Shown here: positions 1,629-29,809 of the stretch, in pieces
How the letters are laid out: every line of letters starts with the position of its first letter
Numbering within the stretch: position 1 is the stretch's first letter
Origin: Myxococcota bacterium
GTDB lineage: Bacteria; Myxococcota_A; Bradymonadia; UBA7976; UBA1532
NCBI GenBank assembly: GCA_963169045.1
Contig: CAUJDF010000026.1
Location: 1-64,000 of the forward strand
DNA length: 64,000 nucleotides
Direction of reading: 5' to 3'
Position numbers and translations under genes: made by a program
The notes under the pieces: generated by a model
What the model was told of the DNA's origin: nothing
The model's database searches: none
The model's input: the letters and a program-made list of their open reading frames with translations, nothing else

Positions 1629-1636
1629 GGGCCACC

Positions 1637-3890: not shown

Positions 3891-3903
3891 AGGCCGCCCG
3901 CCG

Positions 3904-5031: not shown

Positions 5032-5103
5032 GTCGGGAATGACGCCGGGGCGCCGCCCGGCGCTTCGGTCGGCGCGCGTCGTCCTCGAGCGGGACGAACC
5101 GGC

Positions 5104-5874: not shown

Positions 5875-5895
5875 GGCCGCCCTCCCCTCACCGGC

Positions 5896-7902: not shown

Positions 7903-7903
7903 C

Positions 7904-10723
7904 TCATCGCTCCAGGAAACGGAACGCGCGCCAGTCGGAGGCGGGCTCGGCCGCGGCGAGGGCGAGCTGCGCGCGCGCCAACGCCGCCGCCGGGTCCCAC
8001 GGACCGGGGCGTCGTTCGTCGTAGAGGTGCTGGCTCATCTTGCGAGCCAGCGAGTTCGTGACCGGACGCACGGCGGCGACCACCCCGCGCGCGCCGGCGA
8101 TCAGAAATGCCTGTGCCAGGCCGACGCTCTCGGCGGGGGCCACGGTGCCCGCTTCGCTGCGGGCCGTCTCGCACGCCGAGAGGACGACCCACGCCGGGCT
8201 CACCCCCAGCGTCAGGATGTCGCTCACCGTCAGCGAGCTGCCCTCGGCGAGCGGCAGCGCGCTGTCCCAGCCCTCGCGGCCGGCGAACACGCCGTGACCG
8301 GCGTAGTGCAGCAGACCGGCCTTCGGCAGCGCCTCGAGGAGGGCCTGGCGCGTCGCCTCGCGCGTGGTGAGCTGCGAGATCTCGGCGTAACGAGTACCGG
8401 TGAGCGCGCGGCGCACGTCGTTCGCCTCGTCACGCGCCGGCAGCAGGTCGCCCTTCGGATCGGCGACGAGCAGCGCGCGATCCGCGTCGATGGCGGTGCC
8501 CGACTCGCCCACGTCCAGCGACCAGGCGACCACGAAGTGCTCGACCAGCGGGCGTCCCTGCCACGGCATCGTGTGCAGGTCGACGTCCCGCAGTCGCCCG
8601 TAGGCCAACAGGCGCAGTCGGCGCGCACCGGCGAGGACATCAGCCAGCGGTTCGAAGAGCCACGCCGAAGCGGTCGCGTCCGGATCGGGCACGCCTGCGC
8701 ACGCCTTCGGGATGGTCCGGGCCGCGAGCGCCACCGGCGCCTCGGTCGCCTCGCGCACGCCGCGCGTCACGGCCGCGTCGGCAACGAGCGTCGCGGGCGC
8801 GGCGTGGCGCGTCGTCCCCGCCAACACGAACGCGTCGAGCGTACACGCCGGTGGCGCGCCAATGCGCTTCGCGACGACACCGCGGGTCGTCGCCCCGAAG
8901 ACGATCCAACCCGAATCCCCGGGGAACCAGATCAGGATCGCCTCGCCTTCGGCGGGCGGCCGCAGCGGGGCGTCCACCTCGCCGGCTCCGCCGAGGACCG
9001 CCACCGCCCGATCGAGGGCAGCGCGCATCCGGCGCAGCCGCTCTGCGCGCTCGGTGGCGGCCGCCTCGCGCTCGCGGCCTGTCAGGGCCCAGGCGGTGGC
9101 CCCCTCCGCCTCCACCGCGTCTCGCTCGCGACGGTACTCGGCGTATGCCGTCTCCCATGCCTGCCGCCGCGCGGCCGAGAGGCGGGCGACGCGGTCGGCC
9201 CCGCCGCCCGGGAGCGCGCGACGGCGCGCGCGACGCGCCACGGCCATCGCCTCTTCGGCGCGGCCGACATCGACGAGCAGGTCGACGAGGCGGCGGGCAC
9301 TCGCCTCGCGGTCGGCGAGGAAGTGGACGCGTCCTTCGTCCACGGGCACGAGCATGCTCTCGTCCGAGAGCTGCGCCTCGGCGGTCCGATACGCGGCGAG
9401 GGCCCCTTCCCGATCCCCGAGCGCCTCGAGCGCGCGGCCGCGGCCCACCTCGGCGCGCCAGCGCAGCTCGGCCGCGGCGGTCGCCTCGGCGAGCCTGCCG
9501 AGATCTTCGTAGCGGGCGCGCGCCTCTTCGAACTTCCCCGCGGCGAACGACAGGCGGGCCTCGATCGCCAGTCGCCACGCCAGGATCTCGGGGGCGTCCG
9601 GCAGCGCCGCCGCCTCGGCCAGCCGCCGCTGGGCATCGTCGAACCGGCCCGCCTGCACTGCGTCCAGCGCGAGGTTCACGAGCGCGTTCGCCACACGAAG
9701 CGGCCGCCCGGGGCACTGGCCGCGGTAGAGGCCGAGGGACTCGGCCAGCCACTCGCCCGGGCGCGCCTCTGCCAGCGCGTCGAACGTCCGCTCTCGCTCG
9801 AGCAGCGCGATCCAGGCTCGGTTGTCGAGGATGGCCGCCTGGTCACATTTCGAACGCTCGGCCATGCCTGCGTGAAGCGCCGCGAACGCCCGTTCGGCTT
9901 CGCGGGCCTGCCCCATGCGCAGCCGCGTCGTCGCCATCTCGACGTCGACGTTCCAGGCCAGCGGCATCTCGAGGCGCTCGGCACTGCTCCGTGCGCGCTC
10001 GAAGAACTCCAGCGCCGCCCGGAAGTCGCCGGCGTCGCGTGCGAGAACAGCCTCGTGGAAGATGCGGCGCGCTTCCGCCTCGTGCCAGGTGGTGTCGTAC
10101 GCATCGAGCCCGGCGAGGGCCGCGTGCGCCTCGGCGAAGTCACGCCGCTCGATTGCCGTGAAGGCCTGCATGAGAGCGCTGCGCACGCCGCCCGACACGT
10201 GCCCGGCGCGGAACTGCGCCGCCGACGCCTCGCGGAACAACCCGACCGCCTTCGCCAGCTCGCCCGCCTTGCGCGCCTCGCGCGCCAGCTTGTCGAGCGC
10301 CGGACCGCGGGTCGCCGCCTCCCCGGTCGCCTTCTGGAGCGCCGCCGCGTCCATCGCGGCGACCGGGTCGGGCCGGGGCGGCGCCACCGCGATGCGCCAC
10401 GTCCCGCGCGCGCCGTTGCCGCGCGCCGTCAGCCGCACCTCGGTCGCGCCCGCCTCGACGCGGACGCCGAGCAGCCGGCCGCCGCCCACGTCGCGCGCGG
10501 GCCCCGCGGTTCCGCCGGCGACGCTCAGCGTGTCGGCCCAGGGGGCGTCGACCCAGAGGCGCATCAGCGCGTCCTCCCCGAGCACGCACACGGGCCCGGC
10601 GTCGACCGCGGCGCAGCCGGCGAAGCGGACGACGGGCGCCCGCTCGACCTCGGGCGGGGGTGGGGCGCCGCAGCCACCGAGCGCGAGGAGCACGGCCGCG
10701 ACGCGCACGAAGAGGCGAGACAT
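7904..10723 (-). CDS. Lipoprotein with TPR repeats and C-terminal CHAT protease domain
   Basis: A 939-residue protein. The signal peptide with lipobox (LLALGGC, Cys18) predicts an exported, lipid-anchored protein. Residues about 110-450 are Ala-rich helical repeats of TPR type (for example AGDFRAALEFFERAR, AGKFEEARARYEDL). A helical linker leads to the CHAT domain (about 620-939), a clan CD cysteine peptidase related to caspases. The catalytic dyad is present: His about 810 in HYAGHGVF and Cys about 851 in LSACET, followed by the conserved AQAFLIAGARGVVA. The start at 10723 gives the signal peptide; an upstream in-frame ATG would put 12 charged residues before it. It is the first gene of the CHAT/subtilase/repeat-protein cassette and diverges from miaE. 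Confidence 0.9.
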   Translation of the reverse strand: MSRLFVRVAAVLLALGGCGAPPPPEVERAPVVRFAGCAAVDAGPVCVLGEDALMRLWVDAPWADTLSVAGGTAGPARDVGGGRLLGVRVEAGATEVRLTARGNGARGTWRIAVAPPRPDPVAAMDAAALQKATGEAATRGPALDKLAREARKAGELAKAVGLFREASAAQFRAGHVSGGVRSALMQAFTAIERRDFAEAHAALAGLDAYDTTWHEAEARRIFHEAVLARDAGDFRAALEFFERARSSAERLEMPLAWNVDVEMATTRLRMGQAREAERAFAALHAGMAERSKCDQAAILDNRAWIALLERERTFDALAEARPGEWLAESLGLYRGQCPGRPLRVANALVNLALDAVQAGRFDDAQRRLAEAAALPDAPEILAWRLAIEARLSFAAGKFEEARARYEDLGRLAEATAAAELRWRAEVGRGRALEALGDREGALAAYRTAEAQLSDESMLVPVDEGRVHFLADREASARRLVDLLVDVGRAEEAMAVARRARRRALPGGGADRVARLSAARRQAWETAYAEYRRERDAVEAEGATAWALTGREREAAATERAERLRRMRAALDRAVAVLGGAGEVDAPLRPPAEGEAILIWFPGDSGWIVFGATTRGVVAKRIGAPPACTLDAFVLAGTTRHAAPATLVADAAVTRGVREATEAPVALAARTIPKACAGVPDPDATASAWLFEPLADVLAGARRLRLLAYGRLRDVDLHTMPWQGRPLVEHFVVAWSLDVGESGTAIDADRALLVADPKGDLLPARDEANDVRRALTGTRYAEISQLTTREATRQALLEALPKAGLLHYAGHGVFAGREGWDSALPLAEGSSLTVSDILTLGVSPAWVVLSACETARSEAGTVAPAESVGLAQAFLIAGARGVVAAVRPVTNSLARKMSQHLYDERRPGPWDPAAALARAQLALAAAEPASDWRAFRFLER

Positions 10724-10854
10724 GCGCGCATGATGCGTCGCGCGGTCGCCCGCCGGCAAACGCCGCGCGGATTCATGTGCTCTTGGGCGGATGCGGTCAC
10801 GGGGTGTCTCGTCGCCTCCGTGTCCGAGGAGACGACATCGGCGCGCCCTTTGCC

Positions 10855-10882
10855 CTTAAATGGGCCGGCCCAAGACTTAAAT
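10855..10882. promoter_or_regulatory. Operator-like palindrome flanked by direct repeats, in the CHAT-miaE divergent region
   Basis: A perfect 12-base palindrome, TGGGCCGGCCCA (10861-10872), sits between two copies of CTTAAAT (10855-10861 and 10876-10882) spaced 21 bases apart, two helical turns. This is an AT-containing island in very GC-rich DNA and is within the 194-base gap between the divergent CHAT lipoprotein and miaE genes. The layout fits a dimeric regulator site controlling one or both genes; no regulator is identified. Confidence 0.4.
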
Positions 10883-10917
10883 CGCGCAATTCCATGTGCT
10901 AGAAGCGTCGGACCGCC

Positions 10918-11493
10918 ATGCTCCGTCTTCGTTACGCCACACCGCCGGCCTGGACGACGATCGCCACGGGTGACCTCGACGCCTTCCTGCGCGACCACGC
11001 CGCCAACGAGCGCAAGGTGTCTCACAGCGCGCTGACGCTGGCCGTGCAGCACTACGCGCGATCCGAGCTCGTGGCCGCGCTGATCGAGGTCGCGCAGGAG
11101 GAGCTCGAGCACTTCCGCCAGGTCTTCGAGGCGCTGCGGGCGCGCGGGGGGCACCTCGGCCCCGACATGCCCGATCCGTACACGGGCGCGCTGCACCGGC
11201 AGGTGAAGCACCCGGAGGTCGACACGTACCTCCTGCGCCGCCTCGTGCTGTTCGCGGTGATCGAGGCGCGGGGCCACGAGCGGTTCGCGATGCTGACCGA
11301 GGCGCTCGATCCCGGACCGCTGAAGCAGCTGTACGCCGAGCTGACGCGCTCTGAGGCGCGCCACCACGCGCTCTACCTGCGCCTCGCCCGGCAGACGTTC
11401 GGCGAGGCGGCGGCGCGCGCGTGCCTCGACTGGCTGCTCGACGTCGAGGCCGAGGTGATCCGCGGCCTGCCGCTGCGGGCCGCGCTGCATTGA
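10918..11493 (+). CDS. miaE: tRNA-(ms2io6A)-hydroxylase
   Basis: A 191-residue diiron enzyme of normal MiaE length. It hydroxylates the isopentenyl side chain of ms2i6A at tRNA position 37. The ferritin-like four-helix metal site is visible: Glu in HYARSELVAALIE, the EELEHFRQVF helix, the IEARGHERF helix and the SEARHHALYL helix. The segment GPDMPDPYTGALHRQVKHP between helices is also typical. The stop overlaps the start of the PIG-L gene (TTGA at 11490-11493), so it heads a three-gene overlapping operon with two sugar-related genes. That association is unusual for a tRNA modification gene. Confidence 0.9.
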   Translation: MLRLRYATPPAWTTIATGDLDAFLRDHAANERKVSHSALTLAVQHYARSELVAALIEVAQEELEHFRQVFEALRARGGHLGPDMPDPYTGALHRQVKHPEVDTYLLRRLVLFAVIEARGHERFAMLTEALDPGPLKQLYAELTRSEARHHALYLRLARQTFGEAAARACLDWLLDVEAEVIRGLPLRAALH

Positions 11494-12116
11494 TCGTCCT
11501 CGGCTTCTTCCCCCACCCCGACGACGAGAGCTGGGCCGCCGGCGGCCTGCTGGCGCTCGCCGCGGACCGCGGCCACGACGTGCGCGTGCTGTGCGCGACA
11601 CGCGGCGAGGCCGGCGGCGACCCGGCGGTCCGCAGCGCCGAGCTCGCGGCCGCTTGCGCGGTGCTCGGGTGCGCGCCGCCCCGCTTCCTCGAGCTGCCCG
11701 ACGGCGGCATGGCGACGGCGGCGCCCGACGCCTTCCGCGCCGCGCTCGACAGGCTGGCGCCCGACGTCGTCGTCTCGTTCGGCGAGGACGGCGCCTACGG
11801 CCACCACGACCACGTCGCCTGCGCGCGCTGGGCGGCGACCCACGCCGGCGACCGCCTGCTCCGGTGCGCCTTCCCGCCGGGCCTCTTCGACCCGGTGCGC
11901 CGCGCGCTGCGCCGGACGGGCCTCGTCGACCGGACCGTCCCGCTCGGCGTCGCCGCGCCGGACCACGTCGTCGACCTGGCGACCGTGCGCGAGCGCAAGC
12001 GCGCCGCCATCGCCGCGCACCGCTCGCAGCACCGCGGCGGTGTCTTCCTGCGGCCGGGCCTCGTCGAGGCGCTGCTCGACCGCGAGGCCTACGTGGGATG
12101 CGCGTCCTTCATCTGA
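11490..12116 (+). CDS. PIG-L family deacetylase (LmbE-like)
   Basis: A 208-residue zinc-dependent N-deacetylase of the PIG-L/LmbE/MshB fold. The metal site is visible: PHPDDE near the N-terminus (residues 9-14) and HHDH in the YGHHDHVACARW segment. GEDGAYGHHDH matches the family. Known relatives remove acetyl groups from GlcNAc-linked lipids or thiol precursors. The start is taken as TTG at 11490, which overlaps the miaE stop and gives the family's usual short N-terminus (LIVLGFF). It overlaps the following glycosyltransferase gene by 19 bases. The pair recalls glycosyltransferase/deacetylase pairs of mycothiol and bacillithiol synthesis, but no ligase gene is nearby. Confidence 0.85.
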   Translation: MIVLGFFPHPDDESWAAGGLLALAADRGHDVRVLCATRGEAGGDPAVRSAELAAACAVLGCAPPRFLELPDGGMATAAPDAFRAALDRLAPDVVVSFGEDGAYGHHDHVACARWAATHAGDRLLRCAFPPGLFDPVRRALRRTGLVDRTVPLGVAAPDHVVDLATVRERKRAAIAAHRSQHRGGVFLRPGLVEALLDREAYVGCASFI

Positions 12117-13162
12117 CGCGCGACCTCGCGCCGCGCGCCCGCGGCGGCGTCTCGACCGCCGTCGCGGGGATGGTGCGCGCGCTGACGGCCGCCGGCGTCG
12201 AGTGCGCCGTGATCTCGTTCGACGACTGGCGCCCGACGCGGCGGGGCGGCGCCGCCGTCGAGGACGCCGGGCGCGTGCTGCGCCTGTCGGGGCCGGACGC
12301 CCTGCCCGCCGCCGAATTCTTCGCGCGCGATTTCCGCCCGGAGATCGCGCACGTGCACGCGGACCTGCTCTGGCCGTTCGCGGCGGGGCTCGGCGTCCCG
12401 ACCGCGCTGTCGGTGCACGTGCTGCACGCGGAGCAGAACCGCGTCCTCGGCATCGCCGAGCGCACGCTGAGCCTCGCCGCCCAGGAGCGCGCGCTCGCCG
12501 CGGCGGAGGTGGTGCTCGCGCCGTCGCGCGCCGTGGCCGCGCTCGTCCCCGGCGCGCGCCTCGCGCCGCTCGGCGTCGACGACGCGCCGCCCGGCGTCGC
12601 GGACGCCCTCCTCGCCGACGCACCTGCGACACCGCACGCCGGCGTCGCGCGCGCCGGCGTGCTCTACGCGGGCCGCTTCGCCGACATCAAGGGCACCGAC
12701 GTGTTCTTCGCCGCCGCGGCGCGCCTCGACGCCCGGTGCATCGCGGCCGGCGGCGTCCCCGGCAATCCGCGCGCCGAGAACCGGTGGCGACGCCGCGCCG
12801 GCGCCGTCGAGTGCCTCGGCTGGCTCGACGACCTCGCGCCGCTGTACACGCGCGCCGCCGTCGTCGCGGTCCCGAGCCGCTTCGAGACGTTCGGGCAGTC
12901 GGCGCTCGAGGCGATGCGGCACGGCGCACCCGTCGTCGCCAGCCGCGCCGGCGCCCTGCCGGAGCTCGTCGAGCACGGCGTCACCGGCCTGCTCGTCCCG
13001 CCCGGCGATCCGGACGCGCTCGCCGCAGCCGTCGCGTCCCTGCTCGCCGACCCCGCGCGCGCCGCCGCCCTCGGCGCCGCGGCCGCCGCGCGCGTCCGCG
13101 AGCGCCATTTGTGGCGCCACGCGCTGCCCGCGCTGCTCGACGCCTACGCCCGTCTGCGCTGA
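12098..13162 (+). CDS. Glycosyltransferase family 4
   Basis: A 354-residue GT4 enzyme. The N-terminal domain begins MRVLHLTRDLAPRARGGVSTAV, a glycine-rich acceptor loop. The donor half has VLYAGRFADIKGTDVF, then VVAVPSRFETFGQSALEAMRHG, containing the EX7E motif, then PVVASRAGALPELV and TGLLVPPGD. It is complete and somewhat shorter than many GT4 enzymes. It starts inside the 3' end of the PIG-L gene, so the two proteins are probably made together and act in consecutive steps (sugar transfer, then deacetylation or the reverse). The acceptor is unknown. Confidence 0.87.
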   Translation: MRVLHLTRDLAPRARGGVSTAVAGMVRALTAAGVECAVISFDDWRPTRRGGAAVEDAGRVLRLSGPDALPAAEFFARDFRPEIAHVHADLLWPFAAGLGVPTALSVHVLHAEQNRVLGIAERTLSLAAQERALAAAEVVLAPSRAVAALVPGARLAPLGVDDAPPGVADALLADAPATPHAGVARAGVLYAGRFADIKGTDVFFAAAARLDARCIAAGGVPGNPRAENRWRRRAGAVECLGWLDDLAPLYTRAAVVAVPSRFETFGQSALEAMRHGAPVVASRAGALPELVEHGVTGLLVPPGDPDALAAAVASLLADPARAAALGAAAAARVRERHLWRHALPALLDAYARLR

Positions 13163-13342
13163 CCGCCCCGTCGCGCAGATCCCGGCCGGCCCGCTGCCGC
13201 TTGTCGTCATCCACCATTCCGGCGGGCGGCTTGACGCCGGGAGCGCCGCGATGCCGTCGGGGACGAGGCTGCTCGTGCGCGTTGCGCGTGACCGCGTCCC
13301 ACGGCCGCCGTCCGTGTCGTCGCTGGCGCTCCGTCGACCGTC

Positions 13343-13501
13343 GTGGACACCAGGGCGCTGCCAGATCGACTCCGGCTCCTGGGTCTCTGTCTGTACGGTC
13401 GCTTCGGCGCCGGTTCTCGGGGCTTCTCTTCGAGCCGGACCCAGGCGGTCTTCCGCGAGATCTGGCGAGCTCGCAATCGAGACATCAAGCGCAAGAAGTG
13501 A
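13343..13501 (+). CDS. Possible small basic protein or gene remnant
   Basis: A 52-residue frame from a GTG at 13343, preceded in frame by a TGA near 13287. The protein would have the middle segment LGLCLYGRFGAGSRG and a basic tail (AVFREIWRARNRDIKRKK). The tail looks like real protein and the codon use is less GC-rich than the neighbours. No Shine-Dalgarno sequence is clear. It could be a genuine small DNA- or RNA-binding-like peptide, or the 3' remnant of a larger lost gene. Confidence 0.25.
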   Translation: MDTRALPDRLRLLGLCLYGRFGAGSRGFSSSRTQAVFREIWRARNRDIKRKK

Positions 13502-13919
13502 ACCGCTCCCCGCGACTTCCGCCGCCACGCGCGCGCCCGCGCCGCGGACCGGGCGCCGCCCCCGCCTCGACGGCGGCAGGCCGGGGCCGAACACGCGCCC
13601 ATCGAGGTCCGCGCGCATGCCCGGATCCAGCGCCTGCTCGTCCGCCAGGGCGGCGCGCGCGCCCGATCAGCCCCAGCGCCGAGCTGCGCAGCGCGAACGC
13701 CTCCTCCCGCGCGCGGGGTGTCGCCCGCCGGTCGGTGCGCGCGCTGAGCAGCGCCTCAATGCCGCGGCTCTCGGCGATCAGCGCCTCGAGCTTCGGGCGC
13801 AGCGGCGCGCGGACGAACGGATCGAGGCGATCGAGCTCGGCGCCCAGCGTCGACGGCGGCGCGCCAGTCGGACCGGTCAGCCGCCGACGGAGCGTGTCGG
13901 CGGACCTGGATGGGTGCAT
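13485..13919 (-). pseudogene. Hypothetical protein, possibly frameshifted
   Basis: From an ATG at 13919 the frame gives about 85 residues that look like a soluble helical protein (ELDRLDPFVRAPLRPKLEAL, then ESRGIEALLSARTDRRA, then REEAFALRSSALGLIGRAR). After GLIGRAR the reading becomes Arg/Pro/Gly-rich and unlike protein. Shifting one base gives ALADEQALDPGMRADLDG, which continues naturally. This suggests a frameshift near 13660, either real decay or a sequencing error. The start lies 56 bases from the stop of the toroid protein gene on the same strand. No family is recognised. Confidence 0.35.
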
Positions 13920-13974
13920 CTCGTGCGTTTCCGTGGTCGTCGTCGTGGGCTGGCGGCGGCCGGTCCGTCCGGCG

Positions 13975-15816
13975 TCAGCGACGGCGCCGCCGCCAGGGCA
14001 GGCCGAGGGCAAGCAGCAGCAGGCACCCGGACTGCGGGGCGTCGCCGGCATGGCAGCCGCAGCCGGTGGCCGCCGGTGTGTATTCGCCCGCCGACACCGC
14101 GTCCGGCGCCGTCGCGTCGGGGTCCGCCGCGTCCGGCGCCGTCGCGTCGGCGACGGCCCCGGCGTCGGCCATGGCGCACGCCGCCGTCCCCGCCACGACG
14201 ACGCAGCGCTCGTGCGCCGGGCACTCGAGATCGGCGCAGTCCTCCGCCGGCACCGGTCCCCGCGTCCCCTCGTCGATCGTGCCGTCGCAGTCGTCGTCGG
14301 CGAGGTTGCGCACCTCGGCGACGGGGCTCGCCGAGGGCCGGCACACCACGCGCCCGCCGAAGCACGCGCGCGTCCCCTCGGCGCACGCGCCGGGCCACCC
14401 GGTGGCGCAGACGTCGGGCGCCACCACCGGCGCGCCGTCGGTGAGCCGGTCGACGAACCCGTCGCAGTCGTTGTCGACGCCGTCGCACCGCTCGGGTCCG
14501 CCGTCGGGGACGCACAGCAAGCGGTCGCACGCGTCCCCGGCGCCGTCGAGGTCCGTGTCGTCCTGACCGCGGTTGGCGACCTTCGGGCAATTGTCGCAGA
14601 CGTCGCCGACGCCGTCGCCGTCCTCGTCGGCCTGGTCCGGGTTCGCGACGTCGGGGCAGTTGTCGTCGAGACCGCAGCGCGCGTCGTCGTCGCGGTCGAG
14701 GCAGCTGCCGGCGAGCGATCGCTCGAGGGTCAGGAGCGCGAACGCGTGGCTCGAGTCCGCCGTCCGGCCCTCGGGGCTGCCGGCGAAGCCCGTGCCCCAG
14801 GCGCCGCTCGCCGGGTCCTGCCACTGCAGCAGCGTGTAGGCGAAGTCGAAAGAGTGGCTCGGCGGCTCCTCCGGGAAGCCCAGGGCGCCCGGATCGCGCG
14901 CGCCGAATGCCCCGGCGTAGACCGCGCCGCCCAGGCCGTCGTCCGCAGAGACCGCCAGCGCCTTTTCGGCGGACCAGAAGTGGTAGTAGGTCACGCCCGG
15001 GCCGTCCCGCAGCGCCTCGTGCTCCCACTCGCGGCGGAGCCAGTCGAGCGCCCGCTGCGGCCCCGGCGCCCCGGCGGGCACGCCCGCGAGGCGGTAGCAC
15101 CAGAGCAGCGCGGCGGTCATCGACTTCCGCGGGGGCGAGCCGGGGTGGTACGACCCCGAGCCGTCCGCGTTCTGGTCGGCGACGAGGTAGTCGATCACGC
15201 CCGGCAGCGCCGCCCCGGCGCCGTCCACCACCTGCGACGCGGCGGCGAGGCCGCCCACGGCGAACTGCGTCACCGAGAGGTCGCCCGACGGCCCCGGGTC
15301 GAAGTAGTTCCAGCCGCCGTCGTTGCGCGGCGGCTGCCGGCCCTGCGTGCGCTCGAGCGCCGCCACGCCGTGGGCGATCGCGCGGCGCACGTCGACCTGC
15401 GCGCCGACCTCGTCGGGACCGCCGGTGCCGAGCAGGACGGAGAGCGCCATCAGGTTGCCGCCCGTCAAGTACACGTACGGCCGCGGGCCGACGTTGAGGA
15501 GGGCCGGGTCGGTCTGGATCGCGTGGGCGGCGAGACGCCGAGCGAGCGCCCGATCGTCCGCTTCCAGGCCCTCGAACCCGCGCGGGCGGCCCTGCCAGCC
15601 GACGCCGTCGCGCTTCTCGAGCAACGCCAGCAGCGCGAGGAAGTCGTGGTCGCGCTCGCCGTACGCCCCGGTGCCCGCCTCGACGTTGCGGATGTGCTGC
15701 AGGCCGCGGTCGATGGCCCGGTCGACGGCGCAGGCGAACGGCGTCGCCGGGCACGCCTGCGCCGCGACGGTTGCCGGCGCCAGGACGAGACAGGCACATG
15801 GCAGGATGCGCTTCAT
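13975..15816 (-). CDS. Secreted alpha/alpha-toroid protein with TSP3 repeats and MYXO-CTERM tail
   Basis: A 613-residue secreted protein. The signal peptide ends near VAAQACP. Residues about 30-340 look like an alpha/alpha toroid of the prenyltransferase/squalene-cyclase type (repeated [30 protein letters not shown] turns). Next come two thrombospondin type 3 Ca-binding repeats ([17 protein letters not shown]-like and [15 protein letters not shown]). Then come MopE-like metal-binding motifs ([24 protein letters not shown]). The tail has PDA-type linkers, GCGCHAG, a hydrophobic stretch and RRRRR, a MYXO-CTERM-like sorting signal. The start at 15816 is set by the signal peptide. Probably surface-exposed; enzymatic activity is not certain. 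Confidence 0.85.
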
Positions 15817-15848
15817 CGGTCCCCAAGAGGCGCGGCGAGGCGCGCTTG

Positions 15849-16553
15849 TCACACGTCGGGGAGCGACCAGTCGATCGGCGTCTCGCCGCGCGCGACGAGG
15901 TGCTGGTTGATGCGCGCGAAGTGCCCGCACCCGAAGAAGCCGCGGTCCGCCGACAGCGGCGACGGGTGCGGCGCGCGCAGCACGAGGTGCCGGCGCGCGT
16001 CGATCATCGCCGCCTTCTTCCCGGCCGGCGCACCCCACAGCACGAACACCAGACCCTCGCGCTGGGCGTTCAGCACCTGGATCACGCGGTCGGTGAAGCG
16101 CTCCCACCCCTTGCCGGCGTGGGACTGCGGCTGCCCGGCGCGCACGGTCAGCACCGTGTTGAGCAGCAGCACGCCCTGGCGCGCCCAGTGCGTCAGCTCG
16201 CCGTGGGCCGGCCGCGGGACGCCGAGCTCCCGCTCGAGCTCCTTGAAGATGTTCACGAGCGAGGGCGGCGGCGGCACCCCGCGGCGCACCGAGAAGCACA
16301 GGCCGTGGGCCTGGCCGGGGCCGTGGTACGGGTCCTGGCCGAGCACGACGACGCGCACCGCCGGCAGCGGCGTGTACTTGAAGGCGTTGAAGATGTCCCC
16401 GTTCGGCGGAAAGACCGAGTGTCGCCGCTTCTCCTCGGCGAGGAAGGCGCGGAGGGCGTCGACATACGGCTGCGCGAGCTCGTCCTCGAGGGCGGCGAGC
16501 CACGTCGGCTCGAGGTCGGGACGGCGGCGTTCGGCGACGATTTCCTGAGACAT
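15849..16553 (-). CDS. ung: Uracil-DNA glycosylase
   Basis: A 234-residue family 1 UDG, normal length. It removes uracil from DNA as the first step of base excision repair. The active-site motif [18 protein letters not shown] carries the catalytic Asp, the [12 protein letters not shown] motif provides the uracil-binding Asn, and [14 protein letters not shown] holds the catalytic His and leucine loop. The start at 16553 (MSQEIV) gives the typical N-terminus. It lies 32 bases from the toroid protein gene on the same strand and diverges from the dehydrogenase gene. Confidence 0.96.
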
Positions 16554-20027: not shown

Positions 20028-22073
20028 TCAGGGGCAGCGCGGACGCCCGCAGTCGCGCAACACGAGCGTGGTGCCCGGCCCTTCGGCGCGGGTCACCGTG
20101 ACCGATCCGTCGGGGAAGCGCGCGCGGGCCCAGAACGGCCCGGAGCGCGCGCCGAGGCCGAAGTGCGCCGGGAGCGCGCCGTGGGCCATGCTCCCGGCCG
20201 GTCCGAGCGCGCGCGTCGCGAGACGGCCGGCGCCCGGCGCGAAGTCCGGCGCGTCGGCGGGGCCGTCGAGGTCGAGATCGACGCGGACGCCGGGCGCGTC
20301 GCGCTCGTCGCTGGCGTCCCCGTCGTCGGTGTCGCCGTCGGGATCGGTCACGGCGCGCACGCGCAGCCAGCCGCCGCGCGGCCCGGCGCTCGTCCCTTCG
20401 TTCTCGGCGAGGTTGTTGCGGAAGAGGCGGTTGGGGCTGCCGATGTTCCACACGTGCGCCACCACGTCGAGGTCGCCGTCGCCGTCGAGATCGCCGGCGG
20501 CCACCCCCGTCTGCCCCGCCACCTGGTCCGCCTGCGGGAGCACGCGGACGCGGAAACCGGGGGCGGCATCCGCGGCCTCGCTCTCGTAGAGCGCGGGCGC
20601 GGTGGGGCACCCGGTGAACGGATACGGCAGGAAGAGGTCCTCGTCGCCGTCGTGGTCCGCGTCGAAGAAGGCGCCGCCGATGAAGCCGCCCGCGAGCGTG
20701 GCGTCCGGCGCGCGCCCCAGGGCGCAGGCCGCGTCGCCCCGGTCCGCGTCCTCCCAACGCATGAAGCGGCCGTCGCCGTACCGGTAGATCGTCACCCCCG
20801 ACGGCGCGCGCTCGCGGTCCGCGGGCGCGCCGTAGGGGAAGAGCGCGAGGTCGAGGTCGCCGTCGGCGTCGGCGTCGGCCCAGGCGAGCGACTGGCAGAC
20901 GACCGCGGGCACCGTGGGCAGACCGAGCGCCGTCGTGCGGTCGACGAGGCGCCCGCCCTCGTTGCGCAGCAGCGTGAGCGTCGTCCCGCACAGCGCCAGA
21001 TCGGTGGCGCCGTCGCCGTCGAAGTCGGCGGCGCGCGCGCCGAGGCAGCCGGCGCCGTCGCCCACGCGGTCGGGGTCGACGCCGCCCGCGTCGCGCGCCT
21101 CCGCGAAGCGCCCGCCCTCGTTGCGCAGCACGACGGCGAGGTCCCCGACGGCGGCGGGCGGGTCCATCTGGCGGCAACCGGCGAGGTCGAGGTCGCCGTC
21201 GCCGTCGACGTCGAACGCGTCGAGCGCCAGCCACTCGGTGCCGCGGCGCACGACCTCCGTGACGGCCACGGGTTGCGGCGCCCCGCCCGGCGCGCCCTCG
21301 GCCAGCGCGAGCAGCGGCGCCCCGATCGCGGACGACGTGCTGCCGACGATCGCGAGGTCGACGAGGCCGTCGCCGGTGAAGTCGCCGGGCACCACGGCCG
21401 ACGTCAGCGGCAACAGCGACTGGAGCCAGGCTTCGCCGGTCGCGTCGGCGAACCGCAGCCCGCCCTCGTTACGCATGAAGAACGCCTGCCAGCTCTCGAA
21501 GCGGGCCAGCGCCAGCTCCGGGAGCTCGTCGCCGTCGGCGTCCCACAGCGTCACGCCGTGGCCCAGGCCCGCGCCCAGCCCCGAGGTGGCCGTGCGGTCG
21601 ATGAACGGCGCGAGCGCGTAGCGGAAGCCCGCCGGCAGCGCCGCGGCGCCGGACGCCGTCTCGACGACGACGTCGGCCGCGCTCCAGTCGTCGGGGCCGG
21701 CGGGCGTGACGCACGTCAGGCGGTCGTCGCCCTCGACGACGAGGGCCGTGGCCGGGCGGCCGCCGAAGCGCACGGCGATCGCGTCGCCGAGGCCCGCCCC
21801 GGTGAGGGTGACCGTGGTGCCGCCGGCCACGGGCCCCTCGGAAGGCGCGACGGCGTCGAGGCGGAGCACCGGCGCCGCGTCGGGCCGGAGCGCCGCGTCG
21901 GGCTGGTGCGCGGGCGCCGCGTCGGGATCCGGGCACGCCTCCGGGCGCGCGCACCGCTGCGTGGCGGCGCAGCACACGTAGCCGTCGAGGCACGGACACG
22001 GCGCGTCCTCGAGCGGCGTCGGGTCCTGCGCGCAGCCGGCGACGGAGAGCAGCGCGAGCCAGCGCCGCATCAT
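20028..22073 (-). CDS. FG-GAP/VCBS repeat lipoprotein with IPT/TIG domain
   Basis: A 681-residue lipoprotein (MMRRWLALLSVAGC, lipobox SVAGC). A Cys-rich segment (CPCLDGYVCCAATQRC) and a PDAA linker lead to an IPT/TIG domain (about 80-165, GGTTVTLTGAGLGDAIAVRFGG). FG-GAP/VCBS repeats with Ca-binding DxDxDG cores follow (for example DADGDELPEL, DFTGDGLVDLA, DVDGDGDLDLAG, DLDGDGDLDVV), the set expected for a beta-propeller. The ASPIC/UnbV-like C-terminal end has FGLGARSGPFWARARFPDGS. It begins within the caspase stop codon (TGATG), so it is the last gene of the sigma/anti-sigma/caspase operon, and may be a surface adhesin or sensor of that system. Confidence 0.85.
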   Translation of the reverse strand: MMRRWLALLSVAGCAQDPTPLEDAPCPCLDGYVCCAATQRCARPEACPDPDAAPAHQPDAALRPDAAPVLRLDAVAPSEGPVAGGTTVTLTGAGLGDAIAVRFGGRPATALVVEGDDRLTCVTPAGPDDWSAADVVVETASGAAALPAGFRYALAPFIDRTATSGLGAGLGHGVTLWDADGDELPELALARFESWQAFFMRNEGGLRFADATGEAWLQSLLPLTSAVVPGDFTGDGLVDLAIVGSTSSAIGAPLLALAEGAPGGAPQPVAVTEVVRRGTEWLALDAFDVDGDGDLDLAGCRQMDPPAAVGDLAVVLRNEGGRFAEARDAGGVDPDRVGDGAGCLGARAADFDGDGATDLALCGTTLTLLRNEGGRLVDRTTALGLPTVPAVVCQSLAWADADADGDLDLALFPYGAPADRERAPSGVTIYRYGDGRFMRWEDADRGDAACALGRAPDATLAGGFIGGAFFDADHDGDEDLFLPYPFTGCPTAPALYESEAADAAPGFRVRVLPQADQVAGQTGVAAGDLDGDGDLDVVAHVWNIGSPNRLFRNNLAENEGTSAGPRGGWLRVRAVTDPDGDTDDGDASDERDAPGVRVDLDLDGPADAPDFAPGAGRLATRALGPAGSMAHGALPAHFGLGARSGPFWARARFPDGSVTVTRAEGPGTTLVLRDCGRPRCP

Positions 22074-23491
22074 CACCAGACCGTCAGCAGGGCCCCGGCC
22101 GCGAGCGCGCCGAGGCCGACGGTGAATGCGCCCGCGGCGCCCCAGCCGAACGCAGCGGCGCGGTCGTCGTGACCCGGGCGGTCGGCCTGCGCGGCGCGCG
22201 CCGCCGACGCGCGCTCGTCGGCGAACTCGAGCCCGAGCACCACCCCGCCGGCGAGGGCCGCGACGCCCGCGGCGAGGAGGACCGGGCCGGCGATGCCGCG
22301 CGCCTCGTCGGGCGGCGGCTCGACCTCGGCGGCGGCGCCGAGCCGGAACCCGCGCAGCACGTCGGCGTCGAACGGCGCCTCGAAGAGCCGCTCGAACGCG
22401 CGGTGCGCCTCGCCCCGCGCCGCGATGGCCAGCCCTTCGTCGGGCGTGAGCGCGCCGAGGTCGACCGCTCCGCCGCCGGCCTGCACGGTGTACGCCGCCT
22501 GGCCCACGCGGACCTCGTAGCGCCGCGGCGCCAGCAGCGAGAGCACGAGCGGCGCACCGGCGCCCTTGTGCCCGTCGGCGTAGCGCATCCCTCGCTCGTC
22601 GGTGATCGTGACGCGGCCGGCGACGCCGGGCCCGAGCGCGAGGCGCGTGGCGCCCGGCAGGCTCGCTGGCGCGAACACCGGGCCGCGCCGGTCGCGGGGC
22701 GGCGGGCGGAGGTAGACCTGCGGCCGGTAGCGCGGGGCGACGACGCGCTCGTTGGCGACGGCGATGAAGCCGGAGAGCTCGTCGTAGTCGACGACGCCGT
22801 CCCCGTCGACGTCCGCGGCGCCCACGAGCGCCGAGCGGACCTCGTGCGAGAAGATGCCGCCCGAGACGGCGGCCCACTCGTGCGACTCGGCGTCGTTCGA
22901 CGTCGAGAGCACGTAGCCGACGGTGGGCGCCTCGTCGCGCCGGACGAACGGCCGCTCGTAGCGCTCGCGCCGCCCGCCGGGGCCGCGCCCCGCCACCAGG
23001 AAGTACGACTTGCACGCGTCGATGAAGACGTGCGTCGCGTCGGCGTTGAACGCGCCCACCACACCCTGGAAGTCGCCGTGCGTCAGGCGGCCGCCGGCGA
23101 GCGTGACGTAGCCCTCGCCGCCCTCGACGTCGCCGTGGCCGGCGTAGAAGAAGTAGAGCGTCGTGCGCCGGCCCGCCGCGGCGTCGGCCGCGATGGCGGC
23201 GCGCACGCGGGCCAGCGCGTCGCGGAGGCGGTCCGGCGTCGGCTCGCCGGCGACCGGCACGAGCGGGCCGAACACGGCCTGGGAGTCGGCATCGAACGAG
23301 GTGAGCAGCACCGCGTCGGCGGCGCCCGGCGCCAGCAGCTCGTAGAAGCGCGCCGCGTCGTCGTCGGCGAAGCGCAGCGCCGGCCGCGCCTCGTCGGGGG
23401 CGCCGTTGTGCCCCACGGCCACGACGTAGCGGCGCTCCGCGGGCCCGGGCGGCAGCGCGGCGAACAGCAGCAGGGCGAGCAGCGCGTTCAT
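22073..23491 (-). CDS. Caspase family (clan CD, C14-like) protease with an EF-hand loop and C-terminal membrane helices
   Basis: A 472-residue protein. The N-terminal signal peptide (MNALLALLLFAALPPG) leads to a caspase-like domain (about 20-260). The catalytic His119 (YFFYAGHGDVEGGEGY) and Cys160 (VFIDACKSYF) are both present. Inside the domain is a canonical 12-residue EF-hand calcium loop, residues 227-238 (DVDGDGVVDYDE). The middle part is beta-rich, and two hydrophobic segments near 410-430 and 450-472 should anchor it in the membrane. The ATG overlaps the anti-sigma stop by 4 bases, and its own stop overlaps the FG-GAP gene start. Membrane-bound extracytoplasmic protease is the simplest reading. 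Confidence 0.87.
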   Translation of the reverse strand: MNALLALLLFAALPPGPAERRYVVAVGHNGAPDEARPALRFADDDAARFYELLAPGAADAVLLTSFDADSQAVFGPLVPVAGEPTPDRLRDALARVRAAIAADAAAGRRTTLYFFYAGHGDVEGGEGYVTLAGGRLTHGDFQGVVGAFNADATHVFIDACKSYFLVAGRGPGGRRERYERPFVRRDEAPTVGYVLSTSNDAESHEWAAVSGGIFSHEVRSALVGAADVDGDGVVDYDELSGFIAVANERVVAPRYRPQVYLRPPPRDRRGPVFAPASLPGATRLALGPGVAGRVTITDERGMRYADGHKGAGAPLVLSLLAPRRYEVRVGQAAYTVQAGGGAVDLGALTPDEGLAIAARGEAHRAFERLFEAPFDADVLRGFRLGAAAEVEPPPDEARGIAGPVLLAAGVAALAGGVVLGLEFADERASAARAAQADRPGHDDRAAAFGWGAAGAFTVGLGALAAGALLTVW

Positions 23492-24228
23492 GGCGACACG
23501 GTGAGCATCTTGCAGACGCGCGCCCCCGGCGGCCAGCTTCCGTCGCGCTCGAGGGCGAGATCGGCGTCCCGCACGCGCAGCGGCGACGCGGTGAACACCG
23601 CGCAGACCTGCATCGGCCCCGGCGCGGCGTCGACGTACACCGCCTCGGGCAGCTCCCGGTCCGCGACGCCCGCCTCCACGGGCACGCTGCGCGGGTCGTC
23701 GTCCGGCGAGGCGAACGCCGGGTGGAACCAGTGGGCCCGTCCCGCGGCGTCGCGGCCGGCGATGATGACGAAGCGGTGCGCGCTCCCCGTCGGGTTCGTG
23801 TAGGCGAAGAGCAGGCCCTCGCCGCGGCGCACCGTCTCCGTCCGGCGCGGCTCGCCATCGCGGAGCGCGAATACCGCGAACGACGCCGCGACCCCGCCGC
23901 CGCCGCCCCGCGCCTGGAATTCGGGCGGCTCGTCGCGCAGCGCCACGAAGGTCACCGCGGCGGCCGCGGCCACCGCGAGCCCGATCGGGACGACCGGCAG
24001 TCGGCGTCGCGCCGGCGGGGGCGGACCGAGCGCGACGAGGCGCTCGACCTGCGCCTCGGGGACGTCCCGCCCCTCGAGCAGCGCCTCGAGGTCGACGGCG
24101 CGGTCGTAGTACCGGCGGCACGCGTCGCACCCGCGCAGGTGCGCGCGCAGCACCTGCGCCTCGAGCGGCGGCAGCGGTCCCTCGGCCACCTGGCGATCGA
24201 CGCGGGCGCGGGCCTCAGCGCAGATCAT
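23488..24228 (-). CDS. Membrane anti-sigma factor (zinc-finger type) with DUF4384-like outer domain
   Basis: A 246-residue protein. The N-terminal anti-sigma zinc finger is visible as Cys3, His30, Cys34 and Cys37 (the HLRGCDAC motif). One membrane helix is at about 77-97. The C-terminal 145 residues form an outer domain beginning FQARG, with RRGEGLLFAYTNPTG, GRAHWFHPAF and CAVFTASPL, resembling DUF4384-type domains that are often linked to caspase-like proteases. It overlaps the sigma factor gene by 14 bases and the caspase gene by 4 bases. It should hold the ECF sigma factor until an envelope signal or cleavage releases it. Confidence 0.83.
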   Translation of the reverse strand: MICAEARARVDRQVAEGPLPPLEAQVLRAHLRGCDACRRYYDRAVDLEALLEGRDVPEAQVERLVALGPPPPARRRLPVVPIGLAVAAAAAVTFVALRDEPPEFQARGGGGGVAASFAVFALRDGEPRRTETVRRGEGLLFAYTNPTGSAHRFVIIAGRDAAGRAHWFHPAFASPDDDPRSVPVEAGVADRELPEAVYVDAAPGPMQVCAVFTASPLRVRDADLALERDGSWPPGARVCKMLTVSP

Positions 24229-24790
24229 CGAACCACCCCCTCGCGCCGAAAAAGCGCAGTGCAGACGCGCGGATGCGCGCGATCGCCCGGCACACCTGGT
24301 CGCGCGACAGCCCCAGCGACTCGCCGACCGCCGCCTGCGAGACGTCGTCGTCGAACCACCCGGTGAGCACGTCGCGGTCGAGCGGCGAGAGCGCCGCCCG
24401 GAACTCGGCAAGCAGGCGAGCGCGCTCCGCGTCCTCGGGGGCGCGGGCGGGCGCCGCCGGCTCGGGCGGATCCACCATCGGCACCTCCCGCCCGCCGCGC
24501 CCCAGCCTCTTGAGCGCGAGGTTGGCGGCGATGCGCAGGAGGTAGGGTCGCGCGGGCCGGCTCGCGTCGAACCGGCCGTCGCGGACCTGCGCGAAGAAGG
24601 CGGCGAAGGCCTCCTGACAGATCTCCTCGGCGTCGAACGCGCTGTCGATCCGCGCGACGCGCGTCTCCGCTCCGACCCGGTAGGCGAAGCCCCGGCGCAG
24701 GCAGCGCAGGACGTCGCCGGCGTGCGCGCGATACACCTCGGCCATCGCCGCCGGGCCCATCGCGCTCGGATCGGTGCGGCCGCCGGTCAT
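24215..24790 (-). CDS. ECF-type RNA polymerase sigma factor
   Basis: A 191-residue sigma factor. Region 2 runs over about residues 18-100 (AMAEVYRAHAGDVLRCL, then DAEEICQEAFAAFFAQVRDG and RPYLLRIAANLALKRLGR). Region 4 is about 130-180 (LSPLDRDVLTGWFDDDVSQAAVGESLGLSRDQVCRAIARI, described only by its ends). A linker rich in Pro/Ala separates them. The first of several in-frame ATG codons is used as start; MGPAAMAEVYRAH could begin it 10 residues later. It leads the operon sigma, anti-sigma, caspase, FG-GAP protein, and probably activates that operon. Confidence 0.9.
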   Translation of the reverse strand: MTGGRTDPSAMGPAAMAEVYRAHAGDVLRCLRRGFAYRVGAETRVARIDSAFDAEEICQEAFAAFFAQVRDGRFDASRPARPYLLRIAANLALKRLGRGGREVPMVDPPEPAAPARAPEDAERARLLAEFRAALSPLDRDVLTGWFDDDVSQAAVGESLGLSRDQVCRAIARIRASALRFFGARGWFDDLR

Positions 24791-26395: not shown

Positions 26396-27541
26396 ATGCA
26401 ACGCAACCCCGATCTCGCGCTCGACGCCCGTCCGTCCTCGGCCGGCATGCCCCCGGCGAGCGCCGCGCCCGGCCCAGAGGCGCTGCGCGCCGTGATCGCC
26501 GCCGGCGTGCGCGCGCCGAGCGCCCACAATGCCCAGCCGTGGCGCTTCACGCTGCGCGGCGACGACGCCATCGAGTGCCGCCGCGTCCCGGAGCGGTGCC
26601 TGCCGCACCTCGACTTCGAGGACGGCGCCACGCACGTCGGCTTCGGCGCGCTCATCGAGAACATGGACCTGCAGGCGCGCGCGCTGGATCTGCGGCTCGA
26701 CGTGCGCCTCTTCCCCGACGAGACCGACGACACGCTCGTCGCCACGGTCCGCGTCGCGCGGCAGCCCGGCATCGCCGCCGAGCCCGACCTGCTGGTGCAG
26801 ATCCCGCACCGCGCCACCAACCGGCGCAACGGCCCGCGGCAGCCGCTGGCGGACGGCGACGCCGACGCCCTCCGCGCGGCGATCGCGCCCGCGGGTGCCG
26901 GCCTGTCGCTCGTCGACGCGCCCGACGCGCTCGTGGAGATGGGCCGCCTCGTCGGCGAGGGTGACCGCGTCATGCTCACCGAGCGCGGCATGCACCACGA
27001 CGTGTTCGAGGGCATGCGCTGGACGCGCGCCGACATGGAGCGGCTGCGCTACGGAATGGACGCCGCGACGCTCGAGCTGAAGAAGCCGGAGCTGGCGTTC
27101 ATGAAGCTGCTGGGCCGCTGGCCGGTCGTGCGCGCCCTGCGCGGCCTCGGCGCCGGCGGCCTGCTCGCCGCCCCCGGCCGTCAGTCGATCGCCGCGGCGT
27201 CCGCCGTCGCGCTCGTCACCTTCCCCGGGCTGGGCCGCGACAGCTACGTCCGCGGCGGCCGGGCGCTGCAGCGCCTGTGGCTGCGTGCCAGCGAGCGCGG
27301 CGTGGCCGTCCAGCCGATGGCGACGCTGCCGTTCCTGTTCGCGCGTCTCGAGCGCGGCTGCGGCGAGGGCCTGTCGACCGACGCCGTCCACCGCCTGCGC
27401 GCGCTGCGGCCCCGCTACCGCGCGCTCCTGTCGCCGCCGGCCGGCCACGCCGAGGTGATGCTGCTGCGCCTGGCGCGCCTCGAGCCGCCCTCCGCCCGCG
27501 CGCCGCGCTTCGACGTCGCGGACCTCGTCGACGAGGGATGA
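26396..27541 (+). CDS. Acg/Rv3131-type nitroreductase-fold protein
   Basis: A 381-residue protein of the Acg branch of the nitroreductase family, which holds flavin in a fold made of two halves and often lacks classical nitroreductase activity. Typical motifs are VRAPSAHNAQPWRF near residue 45, GALIENMDLQARALDL, and the second-half GLGRDSYVRGGRALQRLWL followed by RGVAVQPMATLP. Actinobacterial relatives are dormancy genes. A strong Shine-Dalgarno (GGAGGAG) precedes the ATG. The gene ends one base from the stop of the convergent E1-like/nitroreductase fusion, to whose C-terminal half it is clearly related. Confidence 0.85.
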   Translation: MQRNPDLALDARPSSAGMPPASAAPGPEALRAVIAAGVRAPSAHNAQPWRFTLRGDDAIECRRVPERCLPHLDFEDGATHVGFGALIENMDLQARALDLRLDVRLFPDETDDTLVATVRVARQPGIAAEPDLLVQIPHRATNRRNGPRQPLADGDADALRAAIAPAGAGLSLVDAPDALVEMGRLVGEGDRVMLTERGMHHDVFEGMRWTRADMERLRYGMDAATLELKKPELAFMKLLGRWPVVRALRGLGAGGLLAAPGRQSIAAASAVALVTFPGLGRDSYVRGGRALQRLWLRASERGVAVQPMATLPFLFARLERGCGEGLSTDAVHRLRALRPRYRALLSPPAGHAEVMLLRLARLEPPSARAPRFDVADLVDEG

Positions 27542-29809
27542 TCAGGCGAACGTGAGGACGTCGTCGACCGGGCGCCGCAGCGAGCGCGCGCTCGGCGCGT
27601 CGGCGTACATGAGCCGGAACAGCAGGATCTGCGCGTCGCCCTCGGTCGCGGGAAAGAGCCGGCGGTAGCGCTCGCCGAGCGCCGCCATCTGCGGCCGCTG
27701 GGCAGGCGTGAACCACGCCGGCTCCTGCGCGAACCGGGCGAGCGCGTAGGTCAGGCCGGTCATCGGCTGGATCGCGACGTCGCGGGCGGTGGCCGTGAGC
27801 CAGACGCGCTGCAGGGCGCGGCCGCCGTCGAAGAAGCGCCGCCGGCCCTCGCCGCCCATCGTCAGCAGCGCCACCGCGCCCGAGGCCAGCGTCCACTTGC
27901 GCGTCATCGCGCCGAAGGCGCCGCCGCCGCCGAGGGCGGCCACGAGCTGGACCGTCTCCGGGTTGCTCACGACGCGCAGCCCGGCGCGGTCCGTCGCCGA
28001 CAGCTCGAGCGTCTCGACGTCGAGGCCGTCGCGCAGGCGCTCGACCTGGGCCCGGCCCCAGCGAAGCTCGGCGATGAACTCGCCGTGCAGCCGGCGGTCG
28101 AGCATCGTCACGCGGTCCATGTCCGCCAGCAGCGCCGCCGCCTCGCGCACGCCCGCCTCGGAGGGCACGATCAGCAGCCGGGCGCCGGCCTCGGCGGCCG
28201 CGGCCGACAGCGCGTCGAGATCGGCGTCGGCGATGGGCCGGCGCGGCGGCACGCGGCGGTTCGTCACGCGGCGCGCCACTTGGTCCAGCAGCGGCGAGCG
28301 CGCGCCGCCGGGCCGCAGCGCGACGTCGCAGGCGACGAGCGGGTCGGCGGCGTCCGGCAGCACGTCGACCTCGGCCCGCAGGCCGACGCTGCCAGCGGCG
28401 AGGTCGATGTTCTCGACGGCGGCGCCCAGCGCGGCCAGCGACGCGGTGAAGTCCAGGTCGAAGGACGTCCAGGAGCGCGCGGGATCGACGCGGCACCGCA
28501 GCCGGTCGTCGCCCGCCACGAACCGCCAGCCCTGCGCGTTGCTCGGCGACGGCGCGAGGATGGCGTGGCCCACGAGCGCCCGCCACAGCGCCCTGCCGGT
28601 GCCTTCGACCGGCGGCGCCGTGCGCTCGGCGAGGGCCTCGGGCGCGACCGGCTCGACGAGCGGCGGCGGCGCCCTCATCGGTGGCGCCGTCTCGTCGCAC
28701 ACGAGCCGCTCGAGGTCGACGTAGAACCGGCCGGAGCGGGACATCTGTCCCAGCAGCACGCGGCGCGCGACGTCGGTGACGAGCGCGCTGCCGAGCGCGA
28801 TGGCCGAGGCGAGCTGGGCCCACGTGGACACCGACTCCTCGATCTCCACGAGCGTGGCGCGCATGCGCGGCGACAAGGCCTCGTCGTCCAGGATCCTCAA
28901 GACGTACGGAACCTTGTCGCGCGTCGACAGGCCGCGCAGCGACTCGGCGCGCACGTCGCCGATCAGGCCGTGGAAGACCGGCCGCGACGGCTCGAGATCG
29001 AAGCGCTCGACGTCGATCAGGCCGCGATCGCTCGTCTCCATCACGACGGGGATGCCGAGGGCGCGCGCCCGCTCGCGCACGCGGACCTTGATGAAGAGGT
29101 CGTCGCACTCCTCGACGAGCAGGTCGAGCTTGCGGCCGTCCGCATCCACGAGGAAGGCGTCGACGTTGTCCGGATCGAGGCCTTGCGAGAAGAGCTCGAC
29201 CGAGAGGTACGGGTCCATCTCGTACATCTCGCGCGCGGCGAGCACCGTCTTGCGCAGGCCGAGGTCGTGCACGCCGCCGCGCAGCCGGTTCATGTTGCTC
29301 ACGGCGAGCGTGTCGAAGTCGGCGAGCGCGAAGTGGCCGCCGACGCCCTCCTGGGCCAGCGTCAGCGCCGCGGCGCGCCCCACCGAGAGGCCCACGACCC
29401 CGACGCGGCGCGCGCGCAGGGCCTCCTGCTCGGCGGGCGTGATCTTGTACCGGTTGCGATCGCTGCGCAGGAAGCGCAGCTCGTCCCGCGGGAGGACGCG
29501 CACGAGCCGCCGCGTCCACGGATAGAACACCCACGTGCCGTAGTCCTCGATCGGGGTGTCGCCGAGGTGCGCGGCGACGGCGTCCTCGAGCGCGGCGCCG
29601 ACCAGCTTGCGGTCGGGGCGCCGCGACGCGACGAGCTCGCGTAGCTGGTCGTGCAGCGTGTCGTGGACGCGGTCGACGCGGGGCAGGAGCGCTTCGGTGG
29701 CGGCGGCGTCGGCGGCGGGGATCAGGATCGGGCGCCAGGCCTCGGCCTCGTCGGCGGGCGCCCGGCGGGCGTTCAGCGCGGCGGTGAGGCCGTCACGGGT
29801 GGAGCTCAT
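27542..29809 (-). CDS. Rv1355c-type protein: E1/ThiF-like domain fused to an Acg-type nitroreductase domain
   Basis: A 755-residue fusion. Residues about 130-330 form an E1/ThiF-like adenylating domain (VGVVGLSVGRAAALTLAQEG, then DFDTLAVSNMNR and IPVVMETSDRGLID). The nucleotide loop is GLSVG rather than GxGxxG, so ATP use needs proof. Residues about 400-755 are the nitroreductase-like part (ILAPSPSNAQGWRF, AAVENIDLAAGSVGL, GGRALQRVWLTATARDVAIQPMTGL), matching the convergent gene. The same two-domain arrangement is known as the Rv1355c family. The ATG lies inside the 3' end of the hybrid kinase gene (17-base overlap), so its production is tied to the signalling operon. Confidence 0.88.
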   Translation of the reverse strand: MSSTRDGLTAALNARRAPADEAEAWRPILIPAADAAATEALLPRVDRVHDTLHDQLRELVASRRPDRKLVGAALEDAVAAHLGDTPIEDYGTWVFYPWTRRLVRVLPRDELRFLRSDRNRYKITPAEQEALRARRVGVVGLSVGRAAALTLAQEGVGGHFALADFDTLAVSNMNRLRGGVHDLGLRKTVLAAREMYEMDPYLSVELFSQGLDPDNVDAFLVDADGRKLDLLVEECDDLFIKVRVRERARALGIPVVMETSDRGLIDVERFDLEPSRPVFHGLIGDVRAESLRGLSTRDKVPYVLRILDDEALSPRMRATLVEIEESVSTWAQLASAIALGSALVTDVARRVLLGQMSRSGRFYVDLERLVCDETAPPMRAPPPLVEPVAPEALAERTAPPVEGTGRALWRALVGHAILAPSPSNAQGWRFVAGDDRLRCRVDPARSWTSFDLDFTASLAALGAAVENIDLAAGSVGLRAEVDVLPDAADPLVACDVALRPGGARSPLLDQVARRVTNRRVPPRRPIADADLDALSAAAAEAGARLLIVPSEAGVREAAALLADMDRVTMLDRRLHGEFIAELRWGRAQVERLRDGLDVETLELSATDRAGLRVVSNPETVQLVAALGGGGAFGAMTRKWTLASGAVALLTMGGEGRRRFFDGGRALQRVWLTATARDVAIQPMTGLTYALARFAQEPAWFTPAQRPQMAALGERYRRLFPATEGDAQILLFRLMYADAPSARSLRRPVDDVLTFA

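Follow-up and report, generated by a model that had tools for sequence, protein, structure and literature searches.

Gene content of the two loci

The DNA analyzed here, referred to as the window, consists of positions 1–64,000 of the forward strand of contig CAUJDF010000026.1 (GCA_963169045.1) from a Myxococcota bacterium (Bradymonadia; UBA7976; UBA1532). Two loci in the window carry a gene for a membrane protein with a single transmembrane helix next to protease genes (Table 1).

Table 1. Features of the caspase and CHAT loci, and fused open reading frames found in Polyangium
Feature	Position	Strand	Evidence
P0003, ECF sigma factor of the caspase locus	24215–24790	-	Sigma70_r2 E = 1.6e-6; NCBIfam sigma70-ECF above cut-off
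P0002, membrane anti-sigma factor	23488–24228	-	zf-HC2 26.3 bits (cut-off 22.2); sequence
Transmembrane helix of P0002	23938–23994	-	Hydropathy
Outer domain of P0002, DUF4384 superfamily	23491–23937	-	Family profile vs DUF4384, P = 1.3e-10 and 3.9e-13
P0004, caspase-family protease with N-terminal signal peptide	22073–23491	-	Peptidase_C14 E = 9e-4, slightly below cut-off
P0007, TIG + FG-GAP lipoprotein, last gene of the caspase locus	20028–22073	-	FG-GAP_3 and TIG; order conserved in loci L019 and L020
P0001, membrane protein of the CHAT locus, sigma-less member of an anti-sigma family	5104–5874	-	Relatives adjoin sigma genes
45-bp tandem repeat (4.4 copies of a 15-residue unit) replacing the anti-sigma N-terminal domain	5618–5815	-	TRF; alignment with relatives
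Outer domain of P0001, predicted Ig-like beta-sandwich	5107–5514	-	AlphaFold2 pLDDT 90, 27 sequences; model 5107–5607
P0006, S8 subtilase, catalytic residues intact	5896–7902	-	Peptidase_S8 E = 4e-12
P0005, TPR-CHAT protease, lipoprotein signal, His/Cys dyad intact	7904–10723	-	CHAT E = 5e-31
Fused P0001-type/TPR-CHAT open reading frame, Polyangium fumosum	L192:3818–6973		
Fused P0001-type/TPR-CHAT open reading frame, Polyangium sp. 6x1	L195:7047–10205		

In the caspase locus (20028–24790) the sigma and anti-sigma genes overlap at 24215–24228, and the P0002 gene is followed on its 3′ side by the caspase-family protease gene and then by that of the TIG/FG-GAP lipoprotein. P0002 shows the three marks of a zinc-finger ECF anti-sigma factor, i.e. 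a zf-HC2 domain, one transmembrane helix and an adjoining ECF sigma gene. The outer part, approximately 149 residues after the helix, displays in order FQARG, RRGEGLLFAYTNPTG, a Trp and AAPGPMQVCAVFTASPLRVRDADL. The His/Cys dyad of the P0004 caspase is intact and is kept in all 21 caspases compared.

In the CHAT locus (5104–10723) the P0001 gene lies after the genes for the TPR-CHAT protease and the S8 subtilase. Here the outer part is approximately 136 residues long, and the helix is followed in order by FEARG, APGAPFEFVLRPAD, a Trp and EPGELRLAFVVARAADL. Inspection of the sequence thus confirms the coordinates, the single helix and the series of short elements that a sequence-only reading had listed for both membrane proteins, and both do adjoin genes for clan CD proteases, CHAT (with the subtilase) in one locus and caspase in the other. 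The P0001 frame is open and its GTG start is preceded by a purine-rich stretch. No anti-sigma N-terminal domain is matched by Pfam in P0001, the repeats being found in its place. A six-frame search of window positions 1–16000 shows no sigma gene near P0001, although most of its relatives have one. Gene content, TRF and the six-frame search support the proposed difference in output: the caspase locus retains its sigma gene, and the CHAT locus lacks one and carries a tandem repeat at the position of the anti-sigma N-terminus. An orphan sigma partner for P0001 was also sought in the same genome, but the other sigma genes of this type are already partnered; they adjoin membrane/zinc-finger genes of their own or CHAT/subtilase genes. 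P0001 is thus a member of an anti-sigma family that has lost both its sigma gene and its sigma-binding part. Since the transmembrane helix, outer domain, CHAT protease and subtilase are intact, the outer domain is suggested to serve the proteases and not only a sigma factor.

Catalytic residues are conserved beyond the window. The CHAT His/Cys dyad is found in 54 of 54 proteins (alignment columns), and the subtilase Asp/His/Asn/Ser residues are present in every relative that covers these positions. Signal peptides or lipoprotein signals are seen by eye at many protease N-termini, and a strict automatic count gives lipobox-like signals in 20 of 55 CHAT proteins.

Gene neighborhoods of the P0001 and P0002 families

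A search of 57 genomes of the class with the P0001 outer-domain profile gave 48 places, with a maximum of 14 in any one genome; the genomes with such places all belong to the same family as the window. Expansion of the P0001 family is strong: two genomes (G005 and G006) carry 10 and 14 copies, and that of the window carries seven.

Thirty-four of 43 P0001-family genes directly adjoin a sigma gene, and further sigma genes missed in gene calling were later recovered in addition to this count. A CHAT protease is found within four genes of the family member in 29 of the 43, while a caspase of the type found with P0002 is near none of the 43 examined. The NCBIfam sigma70-ECF model is matched by all 52 sigma proteins scanned. 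By motif search the zinc-finger motif is retained in nine of 43 family members; the Pfam zf-HC2 domain is present in five of 60 relatives and the remaining 55 have no anti-sigma domain recognizable by Pfam. Other relatives show what appears by eye to be a Cys-less remnant at the place of the zinc finger.

A scan of named genomes with the CHAT protease as query showed the order sigma, transmembrane protein, TPR-CHAT, often with a subtilase in addition, in Polyangium, Sorangium, Pyxidicoccus, Labilithrix, Paraliomyxa and Acidobacteriota. In Polyangium fumosum and Polyangium sp. 6x1 a single open reading frame, immediately following the sigma gene, encodes the transmembrane protein together with TPR-CHAT (Table 1). 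Such a fusion places the CHAT protease outside the membrane, beside the outer domain.

Relatives of P0002 are membrane proteins of the DUF4384 type. Most of them are zinc-finger anti-sigma factors, and the gene order sigma, anti-sigma, caspase, FG-GAP recurs in the closest ones. In a first sample of 22, a caspase gene lies beside 18 and a sigma gene beside 16. Across the phylum the P0002-type domain is present in 92 of 282 genomes. Forty further Myxococcota loci taken from these hits show a caspase in 39 and a sigma gene in 35 of the neighborhoods; L293 (below), a manual addition, is not counted. The outer domain was the sole basis of selection, and the link to the caspase therefore does not depend on the choice of loci. 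One P0002 match (G000:C58) is to a seemingly unrelated transport-type protein and was taken as a chance hit.

Two loci combine parts of both types. L293 (4289–8469), from the genome of the window, carries together a sigma gene, a DUF4384-type transmembrane protein (PF14326 E = 0.003) and TPR-CHAT. In L122 (6509–11283), from a relative, a caspase matching Peptidase_C14 at E = 5e-15 is encoded together with a P0001-type protein, a sigma factor and a CHAT-family protein, of which only the N-terminal piece is seen as the contig ends there. From these bridging loci the two types of module seem to exchange parts. By eye, the part of the L293 transmembrane protein before the helix is nucleotide cyclase-like and has no zinc-finger motif, and the C-terminal part of the L122 caspase is DUF4384-like.

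The neighborhood counts strongly support the conclusion that both membrane proteins belong to modules of a protease and a membrane regulator. This part of the module proposed in the sequence-only reading stands; for one fold shared by the two outer domains the profile match (below) is only suggestive.

Relationship of the two outer domains

The P0002 outer domain is assigned by profile comparison to a branch of the DUF4384 superfamily. The family profile compared with a DUF4384 profile made from PF14326 matches gives P values of 1.3e-10 and 3.9e-13, and none of 200 permutations reaches the score. PF14326 itself weakly matches three of 17 P0002-family members; with P0002 there is no match over the curated cut-off and none listed at E-values up to 1. 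The P0001 family compared with the DUF4384 profile gives a weak P = 0.02–0.05, a score reached by 18 of 200 block permutations. DUF4384 as a family name fits the P0002 domain (P = 3.9e-13); for the P0001 domain it would be tentative.

Similarity between the two families themselves is weak, although repeatable with larger profiles of the outer domains. BLASTP of P0001 against P0002 shows none, and small profiles of ten and five relatives gave a negative result (Prob 0.3). Larger profiles of 42 and 22 relatives gave an hhalign Prob of 91.8 (P = 7.5e-7), but many of the sequences still carried the transmembrane helix, which we consider to have inflated the score, and this value was set aside. Profiles restricted to the outer domains (64 and 34 relatives) give P = 0.0077, and outer-only values overall range from 0.001 to 0.02. 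The real score is reached by two of 200 block-wise column permutations and by none of 200 single-column permutations. When the P0001 family is compared with a profile that combines the P0002 family and DUF4384, P is 0.0017; splitting the P0001 family into two halves gives P = 0.0056 and 0.00097 in the same register. This register sets PGSRIELVLRP in one family against PDDALLVAYTN in the other and also pairs the two late Gly-strands. A subset of 22 relatives from outside the window's own family gives P = 0.021, which is not significant alone.

The idea that the two proteins carry the same outer domain is thus partly upheld: the profiles align, weakly, in the register originally proposed, with scores that exceed random expectation at about the 1% level and fall short of a significant HHsearch-type match. 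Common descent of the two outer domains appears likely from these alignments, and the two likely form one DUF4384-like superfamily.

Structure prediction gives a high-confidence Ig-like beta-sandwich for the P0001 outer domain (AlphaFold2, pLDDT 90); the P0002 outer domain alone gives a model with pLDDT 39. A fold search with the P0001 model found only generic beta-sandwiches and names no family; look-alikes are NPC2 (Z = 9.3), RhoGDI (Z about 8) and, by Foldseek, sulfite oxidase (E = 1e-4). Sequence searches of the PDB with the profiles found no convincing relative.

Comparison with known systems

Membrane anti-sigma factors of the RseA/DegS type are subject to regulated proteolysis. The modules described here are similar in having an anti-sigma factor with one transmembrane helix and a proposed first cut on the outer side, but this cut would be made by a caspase or CHAT protein from the same operon.

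In the type III-E CRISPR system Craspase, which includes CASP-sigma, the TPR-CHAT protease Csx29 cleaves the sigma inhibitor Csx30 (PMC10028731). Here also a TPR-CHAT protease is encoded with an ECF sigma factor and an inhibitor, and P0005 is a TPR-CHAT protein with the His/Cys dyad. Craspase differs in its activation by an RNA-guided Cas7-11 complex, whereas the proteases here have export or lipoprotein signals and are accompanied by a membrane-spanning regulator and often a subtilase. Among the proteins scanned here, no match to a Cas7-11 effector was seen. ECF54 sigma factors have CHAT and subtilase genes in their context, as do the sigma genes of P0001-family loci, but their anti-sigma factor is described as lacking (PMC8999054); most P0001-family loci have a membrane anti-sigma-type gene beside the sigma gene, some with zf-HC2. 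DUF4384 is an accessory domain of orthocaspases (PMC8283722, PMC7475262). The association of a DUF4384-type domain with a caspase is thus similar, but here the domain is on a membrane anti-sigma factor and not on the caspase. Neighborhoods of EACC2-caspases include an ECF sigma (PMC8195603), so that caspase and ECF sigma occur together there too; they differ in having EACC2 and TRADD-N domains, and no DUF4384-type membrane anti-sigma factor was seen in their description. No published description of either module was found in a literature search that reached few subscription papers.

Proposed mechanism and alternatives

We lean toward viewing the modules as two parallel extracytoplasmic switches, each with an ECF sigma factor, an anti-sigma factor with one transmembrane helix and an exported clan CD protease: the caspase in one (20028–24790), TPR-CHAT with the subtilase in the other (5104–10723). 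The sigma factor would be held by the anti-sigma factor, with the outer domain in the periplasm beside the exported and intact protease. Anti-sigma factors with one transmembrane helix usually have an extracytoplasmic outer domain, and with this topology protease and outer domain would share a compartment. On a signal, the CHAT protein or caspase may cut or unlatch the outer domain, after which intramembrane proteolysis would free the sigma factor; we infer both the outer-domain cleavage and the direction of signaling, the cleavage of Csx30 by Csx29 being a precedent. P0001 keeps the transmembrane helix and outer domain and thus should still serve the CHAT/subtilase pair, as a membrane anchor, adaptor or substrate.

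A possible but less probable account is that the outer domains are unrelated: DUF4384 in P0002 and another kind of Ig-like sandwich in P0001, similar only in common patterns of strands and turns. In this account, sigma/anti-sigma pairs were recruited separately by the CHAT and the caspase systems. The weak profile scores, the lack of a pairwise match, the block permutations that reach the score of the P0001 family against DUF4384 alone (18 of 200) and the resemblance of the P0001 model to generic sandwiches all fit this account. Common descent is favored over it by the same register appearing in independent subsets of the P0001 family and by the bridging loci L293 and L122.

The proteases may instead be outputs, the sigma factor turning on exported CHAT, subtilase and caspase effectors while the outer domain senses something else. 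Sigma-factor operons often encode their own targets, and the proteases are co-encoded with sigma and bear secretion signals; still, we consider this somewhat unlikely, as the fusion of membrane protein and protease in Polyangium is more in keeping with a sensor or transducer than with an effector that is released. That P0001 is a decaying remnant, functionless after sigma loss, is very improbable. The sigma gene and the N-terminal domain are indeed gone, but several features argue against decay: the frame is open and its GTG start has a purine-rich stretch ahead of it, the outer domain gives a confident model with relatives (pLDDT 90), and the neighboring CHAT protein and subtilase keep their catalytic residues.

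To our knowledge, few bacterial caspase-family and TPR-CHAT proteases have an assigned natural role. An anti-sigma factor adjoins an intact caspase in nearly every P0002-family locus sampled across the phylum, and a TPR-CHAT protein in most P0001-family loci; this pairing points to a candidate substrate for each protease and offers transcription as a readout. For CHAT-linked ECF sigma factors, which in the case of ECF54 are described as having no anti-sigma factor, related operons may encode one that is membrane-bound. A broader reading, which we regard as speculative and unlikely, is that the DUF4384-like outer domain serves clan CD proteases specifically, as the site where they dock or as their substrate, and that caspases and TPR-CHAT proteins generally gate sigma factors from the periplasm in Myxococcota, as an extracytoplasmic counterpart of Craspase without CRISPR. 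If so, the P0001 copy in the window would show that the pair of protease and outer domain can work without sigma.

Elsewhere in the window, positions 27542–29809 encode a long protein that appears by eye to join ThiF/E1-like and nitroreductase-like parts. The convergent open reading frame at 26447–27541 encodes a protein resembling the nitroreductase-like part.
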